Positions 17,566-55,316 of a stretch of DNA of 55,564 nt are shown here, piece after piece (positions within the stretch are counted from its first letter, which is position 1; each line of letters opens with the position of its first letter). The stretch is taken from positions 1 to 55,564 of the forward strand of contig JAHFED010000046.1 in NCBI GenBank assembly GCA_023248635.1, read 5' to 3'. Below the pieces are notes generated by a model that saw only the letters and a program-made list of their open reading frames with translations, was not told the origin of the DNA and made no database searches. The DNA is from Myxococcales bacterium (GTDB lineage Bacteria > Myxococcota > UBA727 > VGSZ01). Made by a program: the position numbers and the translations under genes.

Positions 17566-19085
17566 TGATCGACCGCTACGATCCCCAGGCGACCACGAGG
17601 ATTCTGATGGGCCAGCCTCAGCCGTCACGCCTGGCCAGCACGAACACCAGGTTCCTGTTGGTGTTCGGATTTCTGGGCACCCTCGTGTTGTCGGCGCTGA
17701 CGATGGGGGTGGCTGCGGTCGAGATCACCCGCGTCGAGCAAGACATTCTGCTGGTGGCCGACGAGAGCCAGCAAGCGACCTACTTCCTCGGCGACGTCGG
17801 CGAACAGCTCGCTCGCCTGCGTTCCCATGTCGCGCTCGGGCTGCGCGAGACGCCCGCCAAGTTCGGTGAACGCGCAGCCACCATCGCCGCCATCCAGTCG
17901 ATTCTCGATACGGCCCTGGGTGAGATCCCCGTCCACCTCGAGCACGGCTTGGTGCGGGATTGGGGCGCGCTCCAACCCGAGGTGCGCCGCCTGCGCCAAA
18001 CCTACGTCGACGCCGCCGACGCCCTGCGCGCGGGCGAGTCCTGGCGGGCTTCGGAGATCTTGGAACAAGAGGCGGTCGCTGCCACGGCGGTTCACGATTC
18101 CCTCGATGAGCTCCTCGAGACCCACCGCGACGTCGTTCAGACTCGCTTGGATGCGGCGCACCGGCGCGCCTCGCTGGTGCGGCGCCTGGCGGCCTGGCTC
18201 GGGGGCGTGTTCGTCACCGGCCTGCTGGCCATCTGGGGCTCGTTGGTCGTGCTCTTGGGGCGCCAGCGTCGACGCTTGGACGAGCACGCCAAACGACTCG
18301 AAGCCATCAACGCCGACCTCGACGCCTTCGCCGGCCGGGTGGCCCACGACCTGAAAAACGCCTTGGCTCCCGTGCAGATCGCCCCCGCGCTGTTGAGGCG
18401 CGCCCAGGATCCGAATCGAGTTCTCGATGTCGCCGACCGTCTGGAGCGTTGCTCCCGCAAGGCCGTCGCTGTGCTCGACGCGCTGCTCGCCTTCTCTCGA
18501 GCGTCAGGCACTGTCGATCCCGGCGAGTCCGCGCCCTTGTCGGTGGCGGTGCAGAGCGTGCTCGAGGAGCTCGCGCCCGAGATCGAACGCCTCGCGGTCG
18601 CCGTCGAAGTGGCCGACCTTCCTCAGCTGCGGGTGCGCTGCAGTCCCGGGCTGCTGCACATCGTGCTCGCGAACCTCTGTGGCAACGCGATCAAATACCT
18701 CGAAGGACAGCCAGAACGCCGGGTGCGCATCTCGGCCCAGCGCGATGGCCCCCAATGCCGCATCGACGTCGAGGATACTGGTCCTGGTATTCCAAAAGGA
18801 GCCCAGCAGCGGATTTTCGAGCCATTCTATCGCGTTGAAGGAACTGTCGCACCCGGTACCGGCATCGGCTTGGCCACGGTGCGCCGGGTGGTCGAGCAAC
18901 GCGGCGGGCACATCACGGTGACCTCGGTCGAGGGGCACGGCGCCCGCTTTCAGGTCTGGCTCCCCGTCGCGGCCGAGGTCAACGCCGCTGTGGATGCAGC
19001 ACCCGTCGATCGCATCGGTCGCTTCGGTGCAGCCCTAGCCGACGCCCAAGCGAGCAGTCGCAGCGAGGCGCCTCTGCGCGACTGA
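17565..19085 (+). CDS. membrane sensor histidine kinase (HisKA/HATPase_c)
   Basis: 506 residues. Two transmembrane helices (about 29-52 and 207-235) frame a helical extracytoplasmic sensor of about 155 residues resembling four-helix-bundle sensors. The kinase core has FAGRVAHDLKNALAPV (phospho-His about 261), NLCGNAIKYL, DTGPGIP, IFEPFYR and GTGIGLATVRRVV. A 45-residue tail follows. GTG 17565 overlaps the previous stop by one base. No response regulator is adjacent. The segment 18770-18845 is richer in A/T codons than its surroundings. The stop codon TGA is followed immediately by structured repeat copy A. Confidence 0.9.
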   Translation: MIDRYDPQATTRILMGQPQPSRLASTNTRFLLVFGFLGTLVLSALTMGVAAVEITRVEQDILLVADESQQATYFLGDVGEQLARLRSHVALGLRETPAKFGERAATIAAIQSILDTALGEIPVHLEHGLVRDWGALQPEVRRLRQTYVDAADALRAGESWRASEILEQEAVAATAVHDSLDELLETHRDVVQTRLDAAHRRASLVRRLAAWLGGVFVTGLLAIWGSLVVLLGRQRRRLDEHAKRLEAINADLDAFAGRVAHDLKNALAPVQIAPALLRRAQDPNRVLDVADRLERCSRKAVAVLDALLAFSRASGTVDPGESAPLSVAVQSVLEELAPEIERLAVAVEVADLPQLRVRCSPGLLHIVLANLCGNAIKYLEGQPERRVRISAQRDGPQCRIDVEDTGPGIPKGAQQRIFEPFYRVEGTVAPGTGIGLATVRRVVEQRGGHITVTSVEGHGARFQVWLPVAAEVNAAVDAAPVDRIGRFGAALADAQASSRSEAPLRD

Positions 19086-19294
19086 TCCCCGATCTCGCTG
19101 AACTTCGACCGCGGAGCGGTCTCGTTCATCGCCGTCGGGGATGCTCTTCTGGGAGGTCTGGTGCAGACCTCCCCCCGCGCCGACGGAGCCGGACGCGGGG
19201 CCCCCCACCAACTCCGCGTTCCGCGGGCGCGCTTCACGCGCATCATCCCGCGTCTTCCCATCTCGGAACGCGGTCGAACATCAAGCGGACGCGG
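19086..19294. repeat. structured intergenic element, copy A (about 209 bp)
   Basis: It begins with TCCCCGATCTCGCTGAACTT directly after the histidine kinase stop codon. The sequence contains nested inverted repeats: ATCCCCGA...TCGGGGAT enclosing GACCGC...GCGGTC, then GGAGGTCTG...CAGACCTCC, then CCGCG-rich arms. The reverse complement of 46329-46523 matches with about six substitutions and one 14-15-base gap. A more diverged copy is at 21605-21750. It lies between convergent genes, so it could act as a bidirectional terminator. Confidence 0.85.
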
Positions 19295-19437
19295 GATGAT
19301 TCCGGGTCCGGATGATTTTGTCGGCTGCGCCGACTGCATCACCTGGGCGGCACTTCTTCCGCTGCGCTTCGCTCGCGATAAAGTTTCGACGTTCAAGACG
19401 CTGGCGCGTCTTGAAGCCACGAATCATCTTGGGATGA
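19295..19437. other. remainder of the convergent spacer 19086-19437
   Basis: After copy A ends, the spacer holds a short stretch GGATGATTCCGGGTCCGGATGA, an unremarkable segment with GCTGCGCCGACTGC, and one copy of the 24-bp palindrome at 19392-19415. No open frame with a credible start was seen. Confidence 0.6.
19392..19415. repeat. 24-bp palindromic repeat (family P), reference copy
   Basis: Arms TTCAAGACGC and GCGTCTTGAA around TGGC, a perfect 10-bp inverted repeat. The same unit, or a close variant, recurs near 20109, 20135, 20168, 32437, 35216, 35250, 46170 and 50717. All are between genes except for a related segment at 32204, inside a kinase gene. Many copies are trailed by CATCA or GAACATCAA. 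Confidence 0.88.
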
Positions 19438-20108: not shown

Positions 20109-20191
20109 TTCAGGGCGCGCCAGCGTTCTTGCACATCAAGACGCGCCAGCGTCTTGAAGTTTGGATGTTCAAGACGCTGGCGCGTCTTGAA
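20109..20191. repeat. three family P palindromes in a row
   Basis: Three copies: a degenerate one at about 20109-20131 (TTCAGGGCGCGCCAGCG then TTCTTG), a good one at 20135-20158 (ATCAAGACGCGCCAGCG then TCTTGAA), and a perfect one at 20168-20191 with the same sequence as 19392-19415. Spacers are 3 and 9 bases. The cluster is in the divergent spacer between the TlpA-like gene and the aminotransferase, so promoters must lie around it. Confidence 0.85.
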
Positions 20192-20245
20192 CCGGCAGAA
20201 CTTCAACAGTTCGACGACGAGGTCGAGGGGCGGTGGAGGTTGGTC

Positions 20246-21580
20246 ATGAGCACGGTGGGGATGAGCGCGGCGGAGATCGTCGACAAGTGCAAGCAGTACA
20301 CGATGTACTCGTGGTCCGCCGGCGACAGCGTCGACCCCATTCCCTTCGCGCGTGGCGAGGGCGTGTGGCTGTGGGACCGCAACGGCAAGCGCTACCTCGA
20401 CTGGAACAGTCAGGCCATGAGCGTGCACGTCGGCCACGGCCACAAGAAGATCATCCAGGCCATCCAGCGCCAGGCCGAGGAGCTCGTCTACGTTTACGCC
20501 GGCGCCGCCACCGAGGTGCGGGCCCGCCTGGGCGAACGTCTCGCGCGGCTGATGCCGGGTCATCTGAATACCTCGTTTTTCACCCTCGGTGGAGGAGAGG
20601 CCAACGAGAACGCCGTGCGCGCGGCGCGGGGCGTGACGGGGCGGCAGAAGATCATGGCGCGGGCGCGCAGCTACCACGGCGCCACCTCCCTCGCGATCAA
20701 CCTCACCGGCGACCACCGCCGCTGGGCCAACGAGCCCGGACCCCCCGGCATCGTGCGAGTGCTCGATCCCTATCCATACAATTTCTCTTTCGGAAGAACG
20801 CCGGAAGAAATTAGCAAAAACAACCTCGACTACCTCGCTGAAATCATCGCCACCGAGGGTGGCCACACCATCGCCGCCATGCTCATCGAGACCATCACCG
20901 GTACCAACGGTGTGCTGCCGCCGCCGCCGGGCTGGTTGCAGGGCTTGAAGGCGCTGCTCGAACAGCACGACATCTTGCTGATCTGCGACGAGGTCATGTC
21001 GGGCTTCGGGCGCACCGGCAAGATGTTCGCCTTCGACCACGGTCCCATCGTCCCCGACCTGATGACCATGGCCAAGGGGCTGACGTCGTCGTACTTGCCG
21101 CTGGGTGCGGTCGGCCTCTCGGATCGCGTTGCTAAACACTACAAGAAAAATGTCTTCTACGGCGGGCACACCTACAACAGTCATCCCATGTGTTTGGCCG
21201 CAGCCCTTGCGAACCTCGACGTCATCGAAGAAGAAGGCCTGGTCGACAACGCGCGTCGGCTCGAGCCGGTGATGAAAGCAGAGATGGCGCGCTTGCAGCT
21301 TAAGCACCCCTCGATGAAGGCCGGCCGCGCCATCGGTCTCTTCGGGATGATTGATCTGCAAAAGGACGCCACGGGCACACCCTTCGCGCCCTATCCGTCG
21401 ACGTCGCCGGTGATGACCTCGCTGGGCCAGTTCTTTCGCGAGCAGGGTCTGTTCACCTTTCTGAAGAGCTCCAACTTCACCTGCATCCCGCCGCTGTGCA
21501 TCACCGAAGCCGAGCTGCGCGAGGGCTTCGCCATCGTCGACAAGGGCCTCGACCTCACGGATCGCCACGTTGCAGGCTGA
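20246..21580 (+). CDS. class III PLP-dependent aminotransferase
   Basis: 444 residues. It moves an amino group from an omega-amino compound to a keto acid. The family blocks are present: WDRNGKRYLDWNSQAM, TLGGGEANENAVRAAR, YHGAT, ICDEVMSGFGRTGKMFAF, the PLP Lys in MTMAKGLTSSYLPLGAV, and GGHTYNSHPMCLAAALAN. The sequence suggests the group that contains taurine- or beta-alanine-pyruvate transaminases; the substrate cannot be fixed. ATG 20246 has GGAGG seven bases upstream. Around 20770-20825 and 21130-21165 codons switch to AT-rich forms. The 3' end faces repeat copy B. Confidence 0.88.
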   Translation: MSTVGMSAAEIVDKCKQYTMYSWSAGDSVDPIPFARGEGVWLWDRNGKRYLDWNSQAMSVHVGHGHKKIIQAIQRQAEELVYVYAGAATEVRARLGERLARLMPGHLNTSFFTLGGGEANENAVRAARGVTGRQKIMARARSYHGATSLAINLTGDHRRWANEPGPPGIVRVLDPYPYNFSFGRTPEEISKNNLDYLAEIIATEGGHTIAAMLIETITGTNGVLPPPPGWLQGLKALLEQHDILLICDEVMSGFGRTGKMFAFDHGPIVPDLMTMAKGLTSSYLPLGAVGLSDRVAKHYKKNVFYGGHTYNSHPMCLAAALANLDVIEEEGLVDNARRLEPVMKAEMARLQLKHPSMKAGRAIGLFGMIDLQKDATGTPFAPYPSTSPVMTSLGQFFREQGLFTFLKSSNFTCIPPLCITEAELREGFAIVDKGLDLTDRHVAG

Positions 21581-21604
21581 CGAATCATCCCAAATCCGGT
21601 TGAA

Positions 21605-21750
21605 GTTCGCTCAGGCGCGGGGAGCGCGCGCGAAGCGGAGTTGGGTGGGGGCCCCACCGTCCGGCTCCGCCGGCGTGGGGGAGGTCTGCAACAGACCCTC
21701 CAGGAAGAACATCCCCGACCTCGGTGAACGAAGTTCAGCGAGATCGGGAA
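21605..21750. repeat. structured intergenic element, copy B (about 145 bp)
   Basis: It is oriented opposite to copy A and is more diverged. It ends exactly at 21750, next to the stop codon (TCA on this strand, 21751-21753) of the minus-strand hybrid kinase. Read from that stop it begins TTCCCGATCTCGCTGAACTT. It lacks the inner GACCGC/GCGGTC stem but keeps the GTCTG...CAGAC hairpin and the CCGGCTCCGCCGG segment. It fills nearly all of the convergent spacer. Confidence 0.8.
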
Positions 21751-24351
21751 TCACGTCTCCGCTGACGCTTCGATGGCCGGCGTCGCGCTCTCGTCGATGA
21801 GAGAGCGCAGCGTACGGGCGAGCTCCTCGGGGCTGACGGGTTTGCGCAGCATGCGATAGGGGTGCGTGAGCTCGACGGCGCGGGCGCCATAGCCCGTGAG
21901 CAACACCGCCGGCAGCCTGGGTTGCTTGGTGCGCAAGAGGCCGACCAGCGCGTCGCCCTGCAGCCCGGGCATCACCAAGTCAGCGACGACGGCGTCGACG
22001 CCGCCTTTGGCCAGCTCTTCCGCCGCGGCCGCCGACGACGCCGACATCACCACGAAGCCGCGCGAGGAGAGCGCCCGCTCCGTGGCCCGGCGCACGCCGT
22101 CGTCGTCGTCGACCACCAGGATGCGCTCGCGCCCCAAAGAGTCCGCTGCAGCCACCGGGGGCTCGGCGTCGTTGTGCAACAGTGTCCCTCGCTCGGGCAG
22201 CCAGACGCGAAAGGTGGTGCCGGCGCCGGGGATGCTCTCGACAGCGATGTGCCCGGCGGACTGCTTGACGATGCCGTAGACCGTGGCCAGGCCGAGACCC
22301 ACGCCCTTGCCCGTAGGTTTGGTGGTGAAAAAGGGCTCGAAGACGTGGGACTTGGTCTCTTCGTCCATCCCTGTCCCACCGTCGCTGACGACGAGCTCAA
22401 CGAAGCGACCGGGGTCGGGCAGTCCGGCCGGCAAGGAGGCGGCGGCGGCGTCGACGTTGCGGGTGGTGACACGACAGGTGCCGCCGTTGGGCATGGCGTC
22501 GCGCGCGTTGGCAATCAGGTTCACCAAGACCTGCTCCAGCTGGGCTGGGTCGACGACGACGTGCCAGACGGGCTGCAGGTTGAGCTCGAGGACGACGTCG
22601 GCAGGGATGAGCCGTCGCAGCAGCTTCTCGAGGCCGCGCACCACGGCGCTGACATCGATGACCTTGGGCTCGCGGCGCTGTTGGCGGGCGAAGGTCAGCA
22701 GTTGGCTCGTCAGGTCCGCAGCTTTCTTGCCGCAATCCACGATCTCGGCGAGGTCAGCGCGGGCGGTGTCGTCGAGGTTCTTCTGCTCGCTCATCAGCCG
22801 GGCGTTGGTGAGGATGACGCTCAAGAGATTGTTGAAGTCGTGGGCGACGCCGCCGGCGAGCTGTCCCAGGGCTTCGAGCCGGCGGGCTGCGTACAGCTGT
22901 TGCTCGAGCTTCTCGCGCTGGCGCAGGGCCTCCACCCTGCCGGTGACCTCCCGCAAGGAGATGTCGAAGCGGCCGACGTCGTCGTCGTCTTTGGCGTGCA
23001 GCACCCGCATTTCCACGTGGGCGGTGCTGCCGTTGCCTCGGCTGAGGGTCATGGTGACGAAGTCGTCGCTGTCGGGGCGCGCGTGCCGGCTGTCGGACAG
23101 AGCGCGGGCGATCTTGCGAAGATCTTCAGCGGACACGGCCTCGATGTCGGCGAAAGAGCGGCCGGGCAGGGGTCCGCTTTGCTCTCCCTCTTCGGCGAAG
23201 ACCCCATCGAGCCCGAACAAGGAGTTGGCGGCGGGGTTGGCGTCGACGATGACGCCGCCGTCGTTGAGGATCAGCAGCCCATCGGGAGAGGTCTTCACCA
23301 ACGCGCCGCGGCGACGCTCCGACAGGCGCATGCGTCCGGCAGCATCGCGCCACTCGAAGGCGGCGGCGAACAGCGTCCCAGCTCCCACGACAATGGCGTC
23401 GTCGGCGCCAGGCTGGCCTTCGTCGTCGAGCTCGACCACCAACAATCCATGGGCCAGCGCGCCCGAGCGGATGGCAACGGCGCGACAGCGGTGGTGCTCC
23501 GATCCGTCGATCACCTCGACGACAGTCCCTCCGGTTTCGGCGACGACGCGGGCGGCTTCTTCGTCGCCGCCGACCAGCACCGGGGCGTGGAAACCAAAAT
23601 GGTGGCGCGCCCGCGGTCGCTCGGGGCCGCGCACAAAAAGGGCCACCGGACGTCCCCACACCTGGTGCAAGCGCAGCAAGGCTGGACGAAAAGATCGATC
23701 GACGTCGTCACCCTCGACCAACAGTCGGCCGATGCCGGCCAAGGCCTGCTCGTCGCGCACGCGTCGTCCGAGGTTGTCGTTGGCTTGTTTCAGGGCGCTC
23801 TTTTCGATGCGCAGCCGCCGCAGCAGCCCTCGACTCGAACGCGCCGCGGCGACCATCAAGAGGCCCCCGGCGCCGAGCTGCACGACGATGGCCGCGCCGA
23901 GATAGTCCTTGGCCAGGGGCAGAGGTTCCTCGGGCCGCACCCCCAGCACGATCAAGAAACCGCAGACGCCGGCGACGACGGTGGCGGCGGCAGCACGGGG
24001 GCCCAAGGTCAGGCCCGCCCACACCGTGGCTGTGGCCAAGGCCAGCGGACTGGCGCCCTCGCCGCCGGTGCCCCAGGTGCCAAAGAGACCAGCGATGAGC
24101 AGCATGAGCGACACCAGGGCGGCGCTGGTGCGCACATGGCCCAGGCGCAGCACGATCCTGGTGAGCGCCAGGGCCGCGACCGCGCCGCCGCCGATCAACA
24201 CGTGTCGGGCGGCGCCGAAATAGAGGAAATTTCCCAGGGTGTAGAAACTGGCGCCCGCGAGGCTTGCGCCCAGCATGAACTTCAGATCTGGGCGGCTGCC
24301 GGCTTCGTCGTCGTCAACATCGTCGGCTCGGAGGGGGGCTGCGCTGCTCAC
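21751..24351 (-). CDS. hybrid sensor histidine kinase (membrane, GAF/PAS-like, HisKA, HATPase_c, receiver)
   Basis: 866 residues. About six hydrophobic helices (residues 25-175) anchor the protein. A GAF-like region (about 200-345) and a PAS domain (about 350-475, DGLLILNDGGVIVDANPAA) follow. The kinase core has LAGGVAHDFNNLLSVI (phospho-His about 503), NLIANARDAMPNGG, DGGTGM, FEPFFTTKPTGKGVGLGLAT. A C-terminal receiver has VVDDDDG, VVADLVMPG (phospho-Asp about 790), LLTG and RKPV. GTG 24351 overlaps the stop of the NtrC-type gene by four bases (GTGA). The two should form a phosphorelay controlling sigma-54 promoters elsewhere. The signal is unknown. Confidence 0.92.
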   Translation of the reverse strand: MSSAAPLRADDVDDDEAGSRPDLKFMLGASLAGASFYTLGNFLYFGAARHVLIGGGAVAALALTRIVLRLGHVRTSAALVSLMLLIAGLFGTWGTGGEGASPLALATATVWAGLTLGPRAAAATVVAGVCGFLIVLGVRPEEPLPLAKDYLGAAIVVQLGAGGLLMVAAARSSRGLLRRLRIEKSALKQANDNLGRRVRDEQALAGIGRLLVEGDDVDRSFRPALLRLHQVWGRPVALFVRGPERPRARHHFGFHAPVLVGGDEEAARVVAETGGTVVEVIDGSEHHRCRAVAIRSGALAHGLLVVELDDEGQPGADDAIVVGAGTLFAAAFEWRDAAGRMRLSERRRGALVKTSPDGLLILNDGGVIVDANPAANSLFGLDGVFAEEGEQSGPLPGRSFADIEAVSAEDLRKIARALSDSRHARPDSDDFVTMTLSRGNGSTAHVEMRVLHAKDDDDVGRFDISLREVTGRVEALRQREKLEQQLYAARRLEALGQLAGGVAHDFNNLLSVILTNARLMSEQKNLDDTARADLAEIVDCGKKAADLTSQLLTFARQQRREPKVIDVSAVVRGLEKLLRRLIPADVVLELNLQPVWHVVVDPAQLEQVLVNLIANARDAMPNGGTCRVTTRNVDAAAASLPAGLPDPGRFVELVVSDGGTGMDEETKSHVFEPFFTTKPTGKGVGLGLATVYGIVKQSAGHIAVESIPGAGTTFRVWLPERGTLLHNDAEPPVAAADSLGRERILVVDDDDGVRRATERALSSRGFVVMSASSAAAAEELAKGGVDAVVADLVMPGLQGDALVGLLRTKQPRLPAVLLTGYGARAVELTHPYRMLRKPVSPEELARTLRSLIDESATPAIEASAET

Positions 24352-25809: not shown

Positions 25810-27102
25810 TCAGGTGGCGCGCCGGAGCACCGCAGCGAAGAAGCCATCGGTGCCGTGGCGGACGGGATCCAGCGCCAGCACGTCGTCGTCGACGTCGGCG
25901 GCAGCGAGCGCGATGCCCAGCTCGGCCAGTCGGGCGTGGGCGGGCACAAGCTGAAACGTGGAGTCGCTCGCGAGGAAGGCGTCGACGATGTGTCGGTTCT
26001 CGTCGTCGAGCAGGGAACAGGTCGCGTAGACGAGGTGTCCGCCGGGCTTCACGAGGGCCGCATGGCGTCGCAGCAGCTCGGTCTGCAGGCCTTGCAGCCG
26101 TGAGACGTCCCCCTCCTGCAGTCGCCAGCCTGTATCGGGATTGCGCCGCAGCACCCCCGAGCCCGAGCAGGGAGCGTCGACGACGACGACGTCGCATTCG
26201 TTTCGGAGGCGCTTCAGGGCCTTCTTGTCGTCGTCGAGATCGTGGACCCGCACGTTGTGCACCCCCGCCCGCGCAGTGCGCTCGCGCAGGGCCTGCAGGC
26301 GACCCCCGTGCACATCCAGAGCGATGAGGGTGCCCTTGTTCTGCATGGCCGCCGCCAGCGCGAGGGTCTTGCCCCCCGCACCTGCGCAGCCGTCGACGAC
26401 GCGCATGCCCGCCCGGGCGCCGGCCAAGAGGGCGACCAATTGGCTGCCTTCGTCTTGCACCTCGAACAGGCCCTCACGAAAAGCCGCCGTGCGGAACACA
26501 TTGCTGCGGCGCTCGACGACGACGCCGACGGGGGACCGTGCGCAGGCCCTCACCACCACGCCGACGTCGGCCAAGGCGCGCACCAAGCCAGGTCGGTCGA
26601 TCTTGAGGGTGTTCACCCGCAGGGTCTGGGGCGGCGCTGTCGTCGACGACAGGGCCAGCGCTTCCCCGCCGCGGGCCACCAGGCGGGCGCACAACCACTC
26701 GGGCAAGGAGGCGCGCACAGCCAAGGATCCCCGGGCGACGACGTCGACGACGACATCCTGCAGGCGCTGCGATTGGGTTGGCGGCAGCGGGAGATCGAGG
26801 GCGCGCAGGCCTTCGAGCAGCAGCGCAGCCCACACGGCGGTCTCGGGCGCTTCGGGCGAGCCCTGCGCCAGGAGCTCGGCGGCGATCGCATCCAGCACAC
26901 GCCGCCGCCGCCACATCCCCTGGACCGTGTCGACCACGAAGGCCCGGGCGGGGTCGGGCCGACCCTTCATGTGCGCGCGCAAGAAGGCAGCCACGACGGG
27001 ATCCAAAGGCCGGTTGACGTCGAGGCCGGCGCGGTAGAGCCGTCCCGCTTCGCGCACTCCCATGGGATCCAGCCGCACCACCAGCAGGGCGTCGGCGAGC
27101 AC
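25810..27102 (-). CDS. rsmB: RsmB/NOP-family 16S rRNA (cytosine-5) methyltransferase
   Basis: 430 residues, matching E. coli RsmB (429). It methylates C967 of 16S rRNA with SAM. An N-terminal NusB-like helical domain (1-145) precedes the catalytic domain. SAM motif I is VVDGCAGAGGKTLALAAAM; the two catalytic cysteines are in VVVDAPCSGSGVLRRNPD and HLVYATCSLLDDEN. The start is GTG 27102 or the later ATG about 13 codons in. The gene is 28 bases from the NtrC-type gene and on the same strand, so it may be co-transcribed. A divergent small gene lies upstream. Confidence 0.9.
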   Translation of the reverse strand: MLADALLVVRLDPMGVREAGRLYRAGLDVNRPLDPVVAAFLRAHMKGRPDPARAFVVDTVQGMWRRRRVLDAIAAELLAQGSPEAPETAVWAALLLEGLRALDLPLPPTQSQRLQDVVVDVVARGSLAVRASLPEWLCARLVARGGEALALSSTTAPPQTLRVNTLKIDRPGLVRALADVGVVVRACARSPVGVVVERRSNVFRTAAFREGLFEVQDEGSQLVALLAGARAGMRVVDGCAGAGGKTLALAAAMQNKGTLIALDVHGGRLQALRERTARAGVHNVRVHDLDDDKKALKRLRNECDVVVVDAPCSGSGVLRRNPDTGWRLQEGDVSRLQGLQTELLRRHAALVKPGGHLVYATCSLLDDENRHIVDAFLASDSTFQLVPAHARLAELGIALAAADVDDDVLALDPVRHGTDGFFAAVLRRAT

Positions 27103-27252: not shown

Positions 27253-27432
27253 ATGACTCTCCTTGCTACCCTTCTCGCGACCCTGTTGTCCTTCATCAAC
27301 CTGAGCGGAACCGGCAGCCGTGCCGACTTCATCAGCAAGGATCAGGACCTCCGCGACACCCGCAACCAGCAGGCCTTCCACGAGGAAGAAATGTTCTCGG
27401 CCGGCCAGATGGGTCACTGCCCCCACGGCTGA
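27253..27432 (+). CDS. 59-residue hydrophobic-leader peptide, function unknown
   Basis: A short gene supported by a strong ribosome binding site: AGGAGG at 27239-27244, eight bases before ATG 27253. The N-terminus MTLLATLLATLLSFINLSG is hydrophobic, like an export signal or membrane anchor. The rest is polar and charged (RADFISKDQDLRDTRNQQAF, then HEEEMFSAGQMGHCPHG) with one Cys near the end. It sits alone between divergent rsmB and hutH. A TTGACT at about 27179 could be a -35 box, but no clear -10 was found. Its stop codon is the first codon of a tandem hairpin array that ends in a terminator. No family is recognised. Confidence 0.6.
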   Translation: MTLLATLLATLLSFINLSGTGSRADFISKDQDLRDTRNQQAFHEEEMFSAGQMGHCPHG

Positions 27433-27591
27433 ATTGTCTAAGGTTCATCGCCTGGCGGCGATGAATTCACCGACAGCGCTTCGCGTGTCGGTGAATTGTC
27501 TAAGGTTCATCGCCTGGCGGCGATGAATTCACCGACAGCGCTTCGCGTGTCGGTGAATTGTCTAAGGTTCATCGCCTGGCGGCGATGAATT
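27430..27591. repeat. 62-bp tandem repeat, 2.6 copies, two hairpins per unit
   Basis: Units start at 27430, 27492 and 27554 (period 62; the third stops after 38 bases). Full units appear identical. Each contains TTCATCGCC-TGGC-GGCGATGAA and TTCACCGACA-(10-base loop)-TGTCGGTGAA, so the transcript could fold into a row of five hairpins. The first unit begins at the TGA stop codon of the 59-residue peptide gene. GAATTGTCT recurs at each unit start and once more at the array end. Confidence 0.93.
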
Positions 27592-27607
27592 GTCTTTGCT
27601 CTTGGAG

Positions 27608-27640
27608 CACGCAAAACCCCCGCTCGGCGGGGGTTTTGCG
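27608..27640 (+). terminator. intrinsic terminator after the tandem hairpin array
   Basis: GCAAAACCCCCGC and GCGGGGGTTTTGC form a perfect stem with a tiny loop, followed by G/T-rich sequence. The A/T outer pairs make it work in both directions. It separates the small peptide gene from hutH. The remainder of the spacer up to 27748 shows no gene. Confidence 0.85.
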
Positions 27641-34969: not shown

Positions 34970-35315
34970 GTGATCTCCGGGAAGGGCAGAACGGCGCTGG
35001 GACACGTCGTCTGCTTCGACTGTGGTTCGGGGTCAACAACGCAGGCTCAGGCGCCGGCTGCGCCTCTTTGGAATCACGGGTCGCAGCCGACACGATGCCC
35101 GCACAGGCACCATGCCTTCGCTACGACCCCATCACTGCTGTTGTTGTTGAGCGCGCAGGGCCCGCATCGCCGACGCCATTGCCCTCGAGGGACCCAGAGG
35201 GCCCTTCGTCGACCCTTCAAGGTGCGCCAGCGTCTTGAACATCAGAACGGCAAGACGCGTCAGCGTCTCGAACATCAACACGGTGGGCACCTGCGCCAAA
35301 GCCATCGATGTCAGT
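34970..35315. other. divergent spacer between glnA and the phospholipase D gene
   Basis: About 345 bases without a convincing gene. The left half must hold the glnA promoter; a small AGGCGC...GCGCCT hairpin is at about 35050. The right end holds two family P copies (35216-35239 and 35250-35272) and no clear ribosome binding site. Confidence 0.6.
35216..35272. repeat. two family P palindromes
   Basis: First copy: arms TTCAAGGTGC/GCGTCTTGAA around GCCA, 35216-35239. Second copy: GCAAGACGCGTCAGCGTC followed by TCGAA, about 35250-35272. Each is followed by CATCA. Confidence 0.85.
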
Positions 35316-46135: not shown

Positions 46136-46169
46136 GGCGCTCAGCGACTCATCGTTGGAGTGTTGTCGG

Positions 46170-46193
46170 TTCAAGATGCGCCAGTGTCTTGAA
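46170..46193. repeat. family P palindrome
   Basis: Arms TTCAAGATGC / GTGTCTTGAA around GCCA. It is a slightly diverged copy of 19392-19415 and is followed by CATCAATACTTCAAG. Confidence 0.85.
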
Positions 46194-46245
46194 CATCAAT
46201 ACTTCAAGTCTCCCAGGGCTGCCGGTTCGAACAATACAACAAAGA

Positions 46246-46269: not shown

Positions 46270-46328
46270 CTGTTGCTGCTCCGTCGACGATGGCGACTGC
46301 AGTGAGCAATCACTTCGTTATCATTATG

Positions 46329-46523
46329 CCGCGTCCGCTTGATGTTCGAACGCGTTCCGAGATGGGAAGACGCGGGATGATGCGCGTGAAGCGCGCCCGC
46401 GGAACGCGGAGTTGGTGGGGGGCCCCGCGTCCGGCTCCGCCGGCGCGGGGGGACTCCCAGAAGGGCATCCCCGACGGAGATGAACGAGGCCGGTCCGCGG
46501 TCGAAGTTCAGCGAGATCGGGGA
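46329..46523. repeat. structured intergenic element, copy C (about 195 bp)
   Basis: Reverse complement of copy A: about 190 of 195 aligned positions agree, and it lacks 14-15 bases around the GTCTGGTGCAGAC hairpin. The end next to the cytochrome gene again abuts a stop codon exactly (TTA on this strand, 46524-46526). Read outward from the stop it begins TCCCCGATCTCGCTGAACTT. Confidence 0.88.
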
Positions 46524-46970
46524 TTACTTGCCGAAGGAGCGGACCTTGGCCACCAAGGCCCTGACGACCTCGGGCTTGTCCTTGAGGTCGGCGTTGGGGG
46601 GCATGAGCGGGCTCTTGCCGACGGCGGCGCCGCCTTCGAGGATGGCCTTGCTGATTTCTTCGTCCTTGGTGGCGGCCTGCCACGCCTTGTCGTTGTAGTT
46701 GCGGGGCTTGGGGTTGAGGCTGGCGGAGGCCATGCCATCTCCTTTGCCCGCGGCGCCGTGGCACACGACGCAGCGCGTGTTGAAGATGGACTCGGCCTCG
46801 GCGACGGGGTCAGCAGCGGCGACGGGAGGCGCAAGGGGTGGCGGCGGCGGTGGCGGCGGCGGTGGAGCCTCGACGTGCGGGGGTGGTGGCGGCGGCGGAG
46901 GCGCCTCAGCAGCGGAGCAGCCTGCGAGCGACAGGGTGCCAAGAGCAACGACGACGACGAGCTTGAGCAT
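46524..46970 (-). CDS. monohaem cytochrome c lipoprotein
   Basis: 148 residues. The signal sequence MLKLVVVVALGTLSLAGC ends in an ideal lipobox (LAGC). A spacer with two runs of eight and ten prolines (PPPPPPPPHVEAPPPPPPP region) follows. The class I cytochrome c domain (about 55-148) has haem-binding CVVCHGAAGKGDG and a distal Met in SPLMPPNAD. The Pro stretch probably acts as a rigid tether. ATG 46970 has GGAGGCTCC upstream (ribosome binding site at 46975-46980). It is 26 bases after ribD on the same strand. Copy C of the repeat touches its stop codon. Confidence 0.92.
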   Translation of the reverse strand: MLKLVVVVALGTLSLAGCSAAEAPPPPPPPPHVEAPPPPPPPPPPLAPPVAAADPVAEAESIFNTRCVVCHGAAGKGDGMASASLNPKPRNYNDKAWQAATKDEEISKAILEGGAAVGKSPLMPPNADLKDKPEVVRALVAKVRSFGK

Positions 46971-46996
46971 GGAGCCTCCGAGGCGCTGGATCTGCA

Positions 46997-48121
46997 TCAG
47001 CCGGCCCGGACCGACAAGGTGGGCCTTTGCCACAGCCCGCCGCCGAGCACCGTCAGACCGTCGTTGCCCACTTCTGCCCGGGTGACGACGTCGAAGCGCG
47101 GCGCCTGCTGGATGTGATCGACCTGCCCGAAGTCGACGGCCGAGAGCCCGTCATTGCCCACCAGCAAGGGCGCGTGAAACCACCACAGCTCGTCGACGAC
47201 GTCGGCCTGCAAGAAGGCGGCAGCAAGCCGGGGCCCGGCCTCCACCAAGACCGCGAGCAGCCCCCGCCTGTGCAGCTCTTTGAGCACGTCCGAAATGGAG
47301 GCCAAGCCCAGCACGCAGACGTTGTCGTCGGCGAAGACGCGGGCGCTGCGGGGCACCCGGGCGTGGCGATCGAGGATCACGCGCAGGGGATCTCGACCGG
47401 GCAGGTCGCGCACCGTGAGGGCTGGATCGTCGGCGAGCACAGTGTCAGCGCCGACGACGACGGCGTCGACAGCGTCCCGCAACGCGTGCACCAGGGCGCG
47501 ACTGGCCGGTCCCGTGATGCCTCGCGAGGAGCCCGTGCGCGTCGCCACTTTGCCGTCGAGCGAGGTCGCCGTCTTCAACACCACGTAAGGACGCGCCAGC
47601 TGCTGCGTCGTGGCAAAGGGTGCGATCAAGGCTTGGCAGCGCAACGCATCGGCGCCCTCAGCGATGACGACGTCGACGCCGGCGGCCCGCAAGCGTCGCA
47701 CCCCCTGTTGGTGCACCCGGGGGTTCGGATCGATGGCGCCGACGACGACGCGGGACACGCCTTCGTCCAGGAGGCGATCCACGCAGGGTGGCGTGCGGCC
47801 GTGGTGGGTGCAGGGCTCGAGCGTGACGACGACGGTCTTGCCCCGCGCGGCACCCGGAGCCAATGCGTCGAGCGCCTTGATCTCGGCGTGGCGCTCGCCG
47901 GCTTTTTCATGAAAGCCCCGCGCGATGATGGTGCCGTCGTCGTCGACGATGACGCAACCCACGGGCGGGTTGGGGTGGGTGCGGCCGATGCCCTTGAGGG
48001 CCTCGCGCCAAGCCTCGTGCAGCGGCGCAGCGGTGCTGATGTCCAAGACGCCGGCGCATCCTGAAGTGCTGCTCGCCGGAGCCGCCGGGGGCAGCAGGTG
48101 GGCAAAAGCAGAGATCCCCAC
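46997..48121 (-). CDS. ribD: bifunctional riboflavin biosynthesis deaminase/reductase
   Basis: 374 residues. The N-terminal deaminase domain (about 30-175) has the zinc ligands in HAEIKAL and CTHHGRTPPCVDRLL, with THPNPPVGCVIV. The C-terminal reductase (about 178-370) has LKTATSLDGKVATRTGSSRGITG and VEAGPRLAAAFL. Together they perform the second and third steps of riboflavin synthesis in the cytoplasm. GTG 48121 directly follows the nrdR stop without a gap; it gives about 30 residues before the conserved deaminase part, so the true start may be a few codons later. No FMN riboswitch is visible because the gene is internal to the operon. Confidence 0.92.
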   Translation of the reverse strand: MGISAFAHLLPPAAPASSTSGCAGVLDISTAAPLHEAWREALKGIGRTHPNPPVGCVIVDDDGTIIARGFHEKAGERHAEIKALDALAPGAARGKTVVVTLEPCTHHGRTPPCVDRLLDEGVSRVVVGAIDPNPRVHQQGVRRLRAAGVDVVIAEGADALRCQALIAPFATTQQLARPYVVLKTATSLDGKVATRTGSSRGITGPASRALVHALRDAVDAVVVGADTVLADDPALTVRDLPGRDPLRVILDRHARVPRSARVFADDNVCVLGLASISDVLKELHRRGLLAVLVEAGPRLAAAFLQADVVDELWWFHAPLLVGNDGLSAVDFGQVDHIQQAPRFDVVTRAEVGNDGLTVLGGGLWQRPTLSVRAG

Positions 48122-53700: not shown

Positions 53701-55316
53701 GCGCGCGGGTTTTCGATGGCCGTGCGCCCAGGAGCGCCGCCGCTGGGCCCAAAGCCCGTTGGCACCGAGATGCCCCAAGAAACCAGCCGACAGCCGCCGC
53801 AGGTGTCGCTGGGATTCAGGTTGCCGTCGTCGCATTCCTCGCCGCTGTCGACGACGCCGTCGCCGCAGAGCTCGATCTTGGCGCAGTCGCCTTTGCACCC
53901 ATCGCCGGAGGCCCGGTTGCCGTCGTCGCAGGCCTCTACGCCCTCGAGCACCTTGCCGTCGCCGCAGATGTTGAGGCGACACAAGCTGGTGCAGGGGCTC
54001 GCGTCGCTGTTGGCGTCGTCGCCTTCGTCGCATTGCTCGCCGGCGCCCAGCTGCAAGATGCGGTCGCCGCAGCGGGGGTCGAGGCACTTGTTGGTGCAGG
54101 TGTCTTCGTCGACCTGGTTGCCGTCGTCACATTGCTCGGCGCCAGAGGCTTGCTCGATGCCGTCTCCGCACCTCGGCGCGGTGCAGGCGTTGGAGCAGGC
54201 GTTGTCGTTGACGTCGTCGCCGTCGTCGCAGTCTTCGACGCCGGTGAGCACCTTGTTGTCGCCGCACTCGTTCAGGGCGCAAGCGAGAGTGCAGAGCTCG
54301 TCATCGCCGTTGGCGCCGTCGCCGTCGTCGCAGTCCTCGCCGAGCTGGATGATGGCGTCGCCGCAACGCGCGGATTGGCAGTCGTTGGTGCAGGCATCGG
54401 TATCCACCAGGTTGCCGTCGTCGCAGCCCTCGGACACGCCGAGCTGGGTGATGCCGTCGCCGCAGCGGGGCAGGGTGCAGGCGTTGCTGCAGTCGTCGTC
54501 GTCGTCGTCGTTGCCGTCGTCGCAGTCCTCGTCGCCGTTGTCGAGGTGAAGGCCGTCGCCGCACACATTGTCTTGGCAATCATCGGTGCAGGGGGCCTGG
54601 TCGTCGTTGTCGACGCCCTCGTCGCAGTCTTCGCCGAGCTGAACGAAGGCGTCGCCGCAGGTGGGCAGCTTGCAGACATTGGTGCAGGCGTCGACGTTGC
54701 TCTGGTTGCCGTCGTCGCAGTCCTCGCCCGGCTGAACGATCGCGTCGCCACAGGTCGGCAGCGCGCAGGCGTTGGTGCAGGCGTTGTCGTCGACGGTGTC
54801 GCCGTCGTCGCAGCCTTCGATGTCGATCTGCACATGGCCATCACCACAGCGCGCCGCCGCACAGCTGGCCGTGCAGGGGCCGCCATCGCGGTTGCCGAGC
54901 AGGACATCGATGCCGTCGTCGCAAGCCTCAAATTCCAGCTGCACCACTCCGTCGCCGCAGGCCCGGCAGTCGGTGCGACAACCAACGTCGTCGTCGCAGG
55001 CCTCACCAGCGTCGCCGTCGACGATGCCGTCTCCGCAGCGGGGCAGGGTGCAGTCCAAGCGACAGGGTGCGTCGGGTGCGTCGGCGTTTGCCTTGCCGGC
55101 GTCACAGGCCTCGTCACCTCCCAACACGCCGTCACCGCAGATCTCGCCGAATTGTTCGGCGCGAATGCAGGTGGGCGCAGCTGCGTCGACGGCGCAGACG
55201 AAGCCGTTGAGGCAGTCGGCATCCGAGGCGCAGAGCACCTGCACGTCATCGGGCAGGTCGGCGCGCTTGCAGCCGCTCACGACGACGACAGCGATCCAGC
55301 ACAGATGTTTCCTCAT
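50754..55316 (-). CDS. very large lipoprotein: 14 Cys-rich CGDG repeats plus NHL-type beta-propellers
   Basis: 1520 residues. Signal sequence with lipobox ([16 protein letters not shown]) at ATG 55316. Residues about 45-525 hold 14 tandem repeats of about 30-38 residues with CGDG/CGDA, a central E-x-CDDG and a terminal C-x-x-x-C, the DUF4215/myxococcus Cys-rich type. These should form disulfide-linked, possibly Ca-binding modules (Asp-rich). Residues about 530-1515 consist of many NHL-like blades: [48 protein letters not shown], with IRRID or VRRVD before each turn, and IxTVAGxG. This indicates two or three six-bladed propellers for binding ligands at the cell surface. The start overlaps the stop of the upstream partial gene by four bases. 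Confidence 0.93.

Follow-up and report, generated by a model that had tools for sequence, protein, structure and literature searches.

Repeats adjoining stop codons in a Myxococcales genome as probable copies of a MITE with a TNA target

Three repeats (copies A, B and C) located in the 55,564-nucleotide stretch of contig JAHFED010000046.1 analyzed here (the window) are very probably copies of a non-autonomous DNA transposon (a MITE) presumably mobilized in an IS5/IS1031-like manner, for which stop codons are harmless TNA targets. A previous sequence-only reading of this DNA had noticed that the repeats start directly behind the stop codons of unrelated genes and lie in convergent spacers. This was borne out: the left ends (TCCCCGATC or TTCCCGATC) start one base past TGA, TGA and TAA stops, which belong, according to Pfam, to a histidine kinase, a hybrid histidine kinase and a cytochrome c, and the three copies are housed in convergent gaps. 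The coordinates of the elements were refined from the flanking target duplications (Table 1), which are TGA/TGA for A, TCA/TCA for B (TGA when read on the strand of the gene) and, for C, minus-strand TAA/TAA. In the case of B, TCA is found on the plus strand right before 21588 and right after 21750, and the duplication at the far side from the kinase gene lies 4 bases past the TGA of an aminotransferase gene (20261-21580). Copy A is 98.8% identical to the family consensus. The match of about 97% reported between A and C, which are inverted with respect to each other, held over 131 nt but fell to 91% over a further 78 nt, and C carries a short deletion.

Table 1. Coordinates of MITE copies, target-site duplications and core palindrome in the window
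Feature	Position	Strand	Description
MITE copy A	19086..19296	+	211 bp, full length; left end TCCCCGATC, right end GCGGGA
Left target-site duplication of A, TGA	19083..19085	+	Stop codon of histidine kinase gene 17661-19085
Right target-site duplication of A, TGA	19297..19299	+	
Core double palindrome	19151..19210	+	GGGAGGTCTG..CAGACCTCCC + GCGCCGACGGAGCCGGACGCGGGGCCCCCC
MITE copy B	21588..21750	-	163 bp, diverged subfamily, right end ...GATTTGGGA
Target-site duplication of B	21751..21753	-	TGA stop of hybrid histidine kinase 21751-24276
Second target-site duplication of B	21585..21587	-	TCA on +, TGA on -
MITE copy C	46327..46523	-	197 bp, without most of the first core hairpin
Target-site duplication of C, TAA	46524..46526	-	Stop codon of cytochrome c gene 46524-46997
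Second target-site duplication of C, TAA	46324..46326	-	

Searching the whole draft genome (6.53 Mb) extended the family far beyond the three copies of the window. When one mismatch was allowed, 141 + 121 = 262 matches to the left-end pattern TNANCCCCGATCTCG were obtained, against 1 + 0 for the reversed pattern used as control, and BLAST with copy A retrieved at least 40 near-full copies at 96-100% identity from 323 candidates. Full copies are mostly of approximately 212 bp, within a size range of 37-245 bp, and contain no transposase gene. Paired copies carry imperfect terminal inverted repeats of approximately 20 bp (TCCCCGATCTCG...GCGGGA), which read inward as TCCCCGATCTCGCTGAACTT at the left end and as TCCCGCGTCCGCTTGATGTT or TCCCAAGTCCAGTTGAAGTT at the right one. 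Identical 3-bp flanks were present in 79 of 82 left-right end pairs, 39 being expected and 54 being the maximum in 20,000 permutations. The duplicated trinucleotides comprised all four TNA types (TGA 53, TCA 17, TAA 7 and TTA 3); their length is given as 3 bp by convention and may be shorter, given that T and A are the first and last bases of the element. The smallest copy (L105:3004-3040) consists of only the two terminal repeats joined in 37 bp, with a TGA/TGA duplication and the same right-end type as copy B. Palindromic versions of 57 bp were found at two loci (L087 and L100), and some copies were nested within others, inserted at an internal CTGA (GGTCTGATGCAGACC). No partner within 260 bp was found for 68 of 150 left ends, some of which are at contig ends while others face diverged or truncated right ends. 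The suggestion of a small mobile element was therefore sustained by several hundred dispersed copies with paired ends and 3-bp target duplications. Among sixty copies of 195-225 bp the median pairwise identity was 0.96, and therefore the burst was fairly recent; the proposal of a recent spread also agreed with the finding that copies with such ends, including full-length ones, were absent from 39 relatives. Read inward, all three end types contain TGA at bases 14-16, and in four copies a called gene ends on this element-internal TGA.

In order to interpret the position at stop codons, the choice of insertion sites must be considered. Genes were called with a custom script. The genome was read in stretches totaling 2.09 Mb, approximately 1.4 Mb of which had been picked for holding copies; densities are biased by this sampling, and site-choice tests inside gaps are much less affected. 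The rule that the element always begins at a stop did not hold beyond the window, since within 1.43 Mb sampled from this genome only 49 of 92 TGA/TAA-flanked copies started at a called stop. In 70 analyzable gaps, the insertion site was a stop codon for 36 copies, and the gaps were in their majority, though not all, convergent (43 convergent and 6 divergent). None of 80 paired-end copies was contained in a called gene, though 87% of the sample is coding. Full copies showed C at position -1 in 45 of 69 cases and G at position +3 in 47 of 69, which defines C|TNA|G as the preferred target. In a discrete-choice model, where each insertion is a choice among all TNA sites of its element-excised gap, a match of both flanking bases raised the choice by exp(3.1). 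Uniform choice of TNA sites predicted 22.1 stop insertions in the 70 gaps, and a preference estimated from the non-stop insertions alone predicted 27.6 (36 seen, p=0.003); the residual stop excess over all gaps had a likelihood-ratio p=0.007. In the 36 clean convergent gaps, 23 stop insertions were seen versus 22.3 predicted (p=0.44).

These results indicated that most of the stop effect arises from target preference plus selection, which fully explain the clean convergent gaps. The excess over uniform choice is mostly predicted because C-TGA-G contexts are good C|TNA|G targets. TGA and TAA stops, being TNA trinucleotides, are valid landing sites; the duplicated TNA restores the stop codon, so that the exact end of the gene is kept, and insertions into coding DNA are lost by selection. 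Since the TNA target fits TGA and TAA stops, special stop-codon machinery is unneeded for most of the position effect. The targeting of gene 3' ends proposed earlier was mostly an indirect effect, and what stands of it is the small stop excess over all gaps. Could this excess reflect active targeting of gene 3' ends beyond C|TNA|G, for example by sensing the termination of translation or transcription? Tandem gaps, with 9 stop insertions versus 5.3 expected, lean in the same direction as the 36 versus 27.6 of the whole set. The lack of residual excess in clean convergent gaps and the location of about half of the copies away from stops argue against it, and selection against disruption of promoters or ribosome-binding sites can yield an excess in tandem gaps. 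The orientation of the insertions also speaks against active targeting: the left end was on the purine-centered (TGA/TAA) side of the target in 32 of 39 stop insertions (32:7) and in 28 of 41 insertions elsewhere (28:13). Because the bias is present at non-stop sites too, the constant left-end orientation is to be attributed largely to asymmetry of the integration reaction rather than to selection at stops. Active targeting is accordingly considered quite unlikely. It is also unlikely that a selfish element with a cut site matching stop codons shelters, through some added gene-end preference, at the stops it duplicates in a genome densely packed with genes. The residual excess possibly comes from selection in tandem gaps or from overlooked short genes. 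The family offers a countable case in which a short transposon target and its duplication turn stop codons into harmless landing sites, through which a parasite can fill an 87%-coding genome, and it illustrates that a pattern of the "always at the stop codon" kind can arise largely from target chemistry and selection.

Regarding mobilization of the MITE, the 3-bp TNA duplication at a C|TNA|G target is the feature on which the IS1031-like/PHIS assignment is based. NuwaII transposons of the PHIS group (PIF/Harbinger-ISL2EU-Spy, IS5-related) use C|TNA|G and share with this MITE both the target and the 3-bp TNA duplication; the likeness rests on the target, and NuwaII elements are eukaryotic and were described with their transposase genes, whereas only non-autonomous bacterial copies were seen here (PMC4482050). 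The IS1031 group of the IS5 family prefers TNA with a 3-bp repeat, and its subgroup member ISLrh has in common with the MITE a 3-bp TNA duplication (TGA in ISLrh); its termini GAACCTGTCTAGTATCT differ from the MITE end TCCCCGATCTCG (PMC12016507). The IS1031 and NuwaII groups both belong to the IS5/PIF-Harbinger superfamily. Based on these likenesses, the enzyme would be a DDE transposase resembling those of IS5/IS1031 (PIF/Harbinger-like, PHIS), making cuts staggered by 3 nt at TNA and joining the element ends there. Such an enzyme would be supplied in trans, from a gene missing from the assembly or lost. No IS5-type transposase of the PF13586, PF13340 or PF13359 families was found in the draft assembly, and neither the sampled sequence nor the searches for these three families yielded an autonomous partner with shared ends. 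One left-right pair spaced by 1.6 kb, the single long pair found, was considered as an autonomous element and judged to be two separate elements. Several contigs (C6, C9, C25, C28 and C31) end at a distance of approximately 100-120 bp from the left end of a MITE. Assembly breaks thus tend to fall within the element, and an autonomous copy could have disappeared from the draft in this way. Knowing the ends and target of the MITE should help to spot the missing autonomous transposase, and this enzyme would extend to bacteria the use of C|TNA|G, a target known from the eukaryotic NuwaII elements.

A different enzyme was suggested by matches to PF01609. In the relatives, these were IS elements for which no matching ends were found, two copies in G005 sharing CTAG-containing ends unlike those of the MITE; in the own genome, only a Tn5-like IS of the IS4 family was found, with its own ends CCTCATGAT..CACATCTT. 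This IS lies in the MITE core palindrome at C5 (L031 1264-2700), C59 (L032) and C76 (L145 2880-3150), so that MITE arms adjoin all three genomic occurrences of its transposase. The abutment looked decisive for a role of this transposase in moving the MITE. Nevertheless, its terminal repeats are not shared with the MITE, a homologue in the relative G015 is bounded by ends of its own, CCTCATGATTGATCACATCTT, and this motif recurs at the C5 and C76 junctions; therefore, the IS is an insertion within the core of the MITE, and its own terminal repeats speak against it as the mobilizer. Furthermore, IS4-family elements make longer target duplications than the 3-bp TNA found here. Mobilization by the Tn5-like transposase is consequently regarded as highly improbable. 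Both junctions (CGC|CCTCATGAT) are at one same core position, which suggests that the Tn5-like IS favors the MITE core palindrome.

The family also resembles REP elements moved by a RAYT (Y1) transposase, in being palindromic, extragenic, located behind genes and present in hundreds of copies, and the core found alone in relatives (see below) resembles a REP. Y1 single-strand transposition makes no target duplications or terminal inverted repeats, whereas 79 of 82 copies here have target duplications, in addition to terminal inverted repeats, which makes a REP/RAYT origin extremely improbable. REP elements are also short, being described as 20-40 bp (PMC3733652), in contrast to this long MITE with paired ends and duplications. 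Closer in kind to the present MITE is Chunjie of Geobacter uraniireducens, for which a review lists 38 copies that measure 178-235 bp and have conserved ends (PMC10969869). The two are alike in size, terminal repeats, direct repeats, nested and truncated copies, intergenic location and a foldable transcript, and differ in sequence and in the higher copy number of the present family. This MITE is GC-rich, whereas the norm for such elements is AT-rich, and the passages of the review on prokaryotic MITEs do not mention exact insertion at stop codons by duplication (PMC10969869).

The sequence-only reading had also considered a conserved terminator-like RNA structure. The RNA of copy A was predicted to fold with -108 kcal/mol (z -3.8; z -4.2 for the left 95 nt), in agreement with the strong structure expected behind the stop; such a fold is also expected because the element has inverted repeats. 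These folds would suit terminators or mRNA 3'-end stabilizers kept at stops by selection, and so would a related core palindrome found 0-9 bp behind the stops of several genes in the relative G003. No intrinsic terminator (a GC-rich hairpin followed by a T tract) was present in copies A and B, half of the copies are off stops, and 6 of the 70 lie in divergent gaps, so that terminator-like RNA was not supported as the cause of the position. Moreover, the exact duplications at paired ends, together with copies of nearly the same sequence at genes without relationship, point to transposition. This explanation is thus very unlikely. Searches against Rfam gave only miRNA-like matches; these scored far under the threshold and concerned another palindrome (20136-20190).

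Comparison with relatives was informative for one host gene. In G001 and G002, homologues of the gene followed by the element at L043:18550 end at the same residue (LLRSGQL[T/S]I*), without an element behind the stop, and the DNA past it is unrelated sequence. This shows that the gene end is intact and that the sites in the relatives are empty but diverged, rather than an allelic empty site. For A and B, no usable orthologous empty sites were obtained, the relatives being too diverged or lacking synteny; the closest named relative found was the deltaproteobacterial MAG VGSZ01000049, with 78% protein identity in the aminotransferase. No copies were detected in plasmids or phages, and behind three viral 18-mer matches the remainder of the element was absent. 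The core double palindrome is present alone in G002 and G003. At the G003 loci (L155-L160), the related palindrome lacks MITE ends and lies past TGA stops of unrelated genes, and no target duplications were recognized there by eye. Another repeat, at L043:19643-19819, has matches of approximately 80% at many places in G001-G003.

Other repeats were observed in the window. A second dispersed palindrome, TTCAAGACGC(TGGC/GCCA)GCGTCTTGAA, occurs at 19383-19416, 20125-20207, 35215-35271 and 46154-46208, and was found inside or beside MITE copies too. Between the divergent genes at 27102 and 27749, a tandem 62-bp unit containing hairpins is present as two identical copies and a partial one (27430-27615). 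Finally, the region 53799-55140 is part of a long gene made of repeats of approximately 33 codons.
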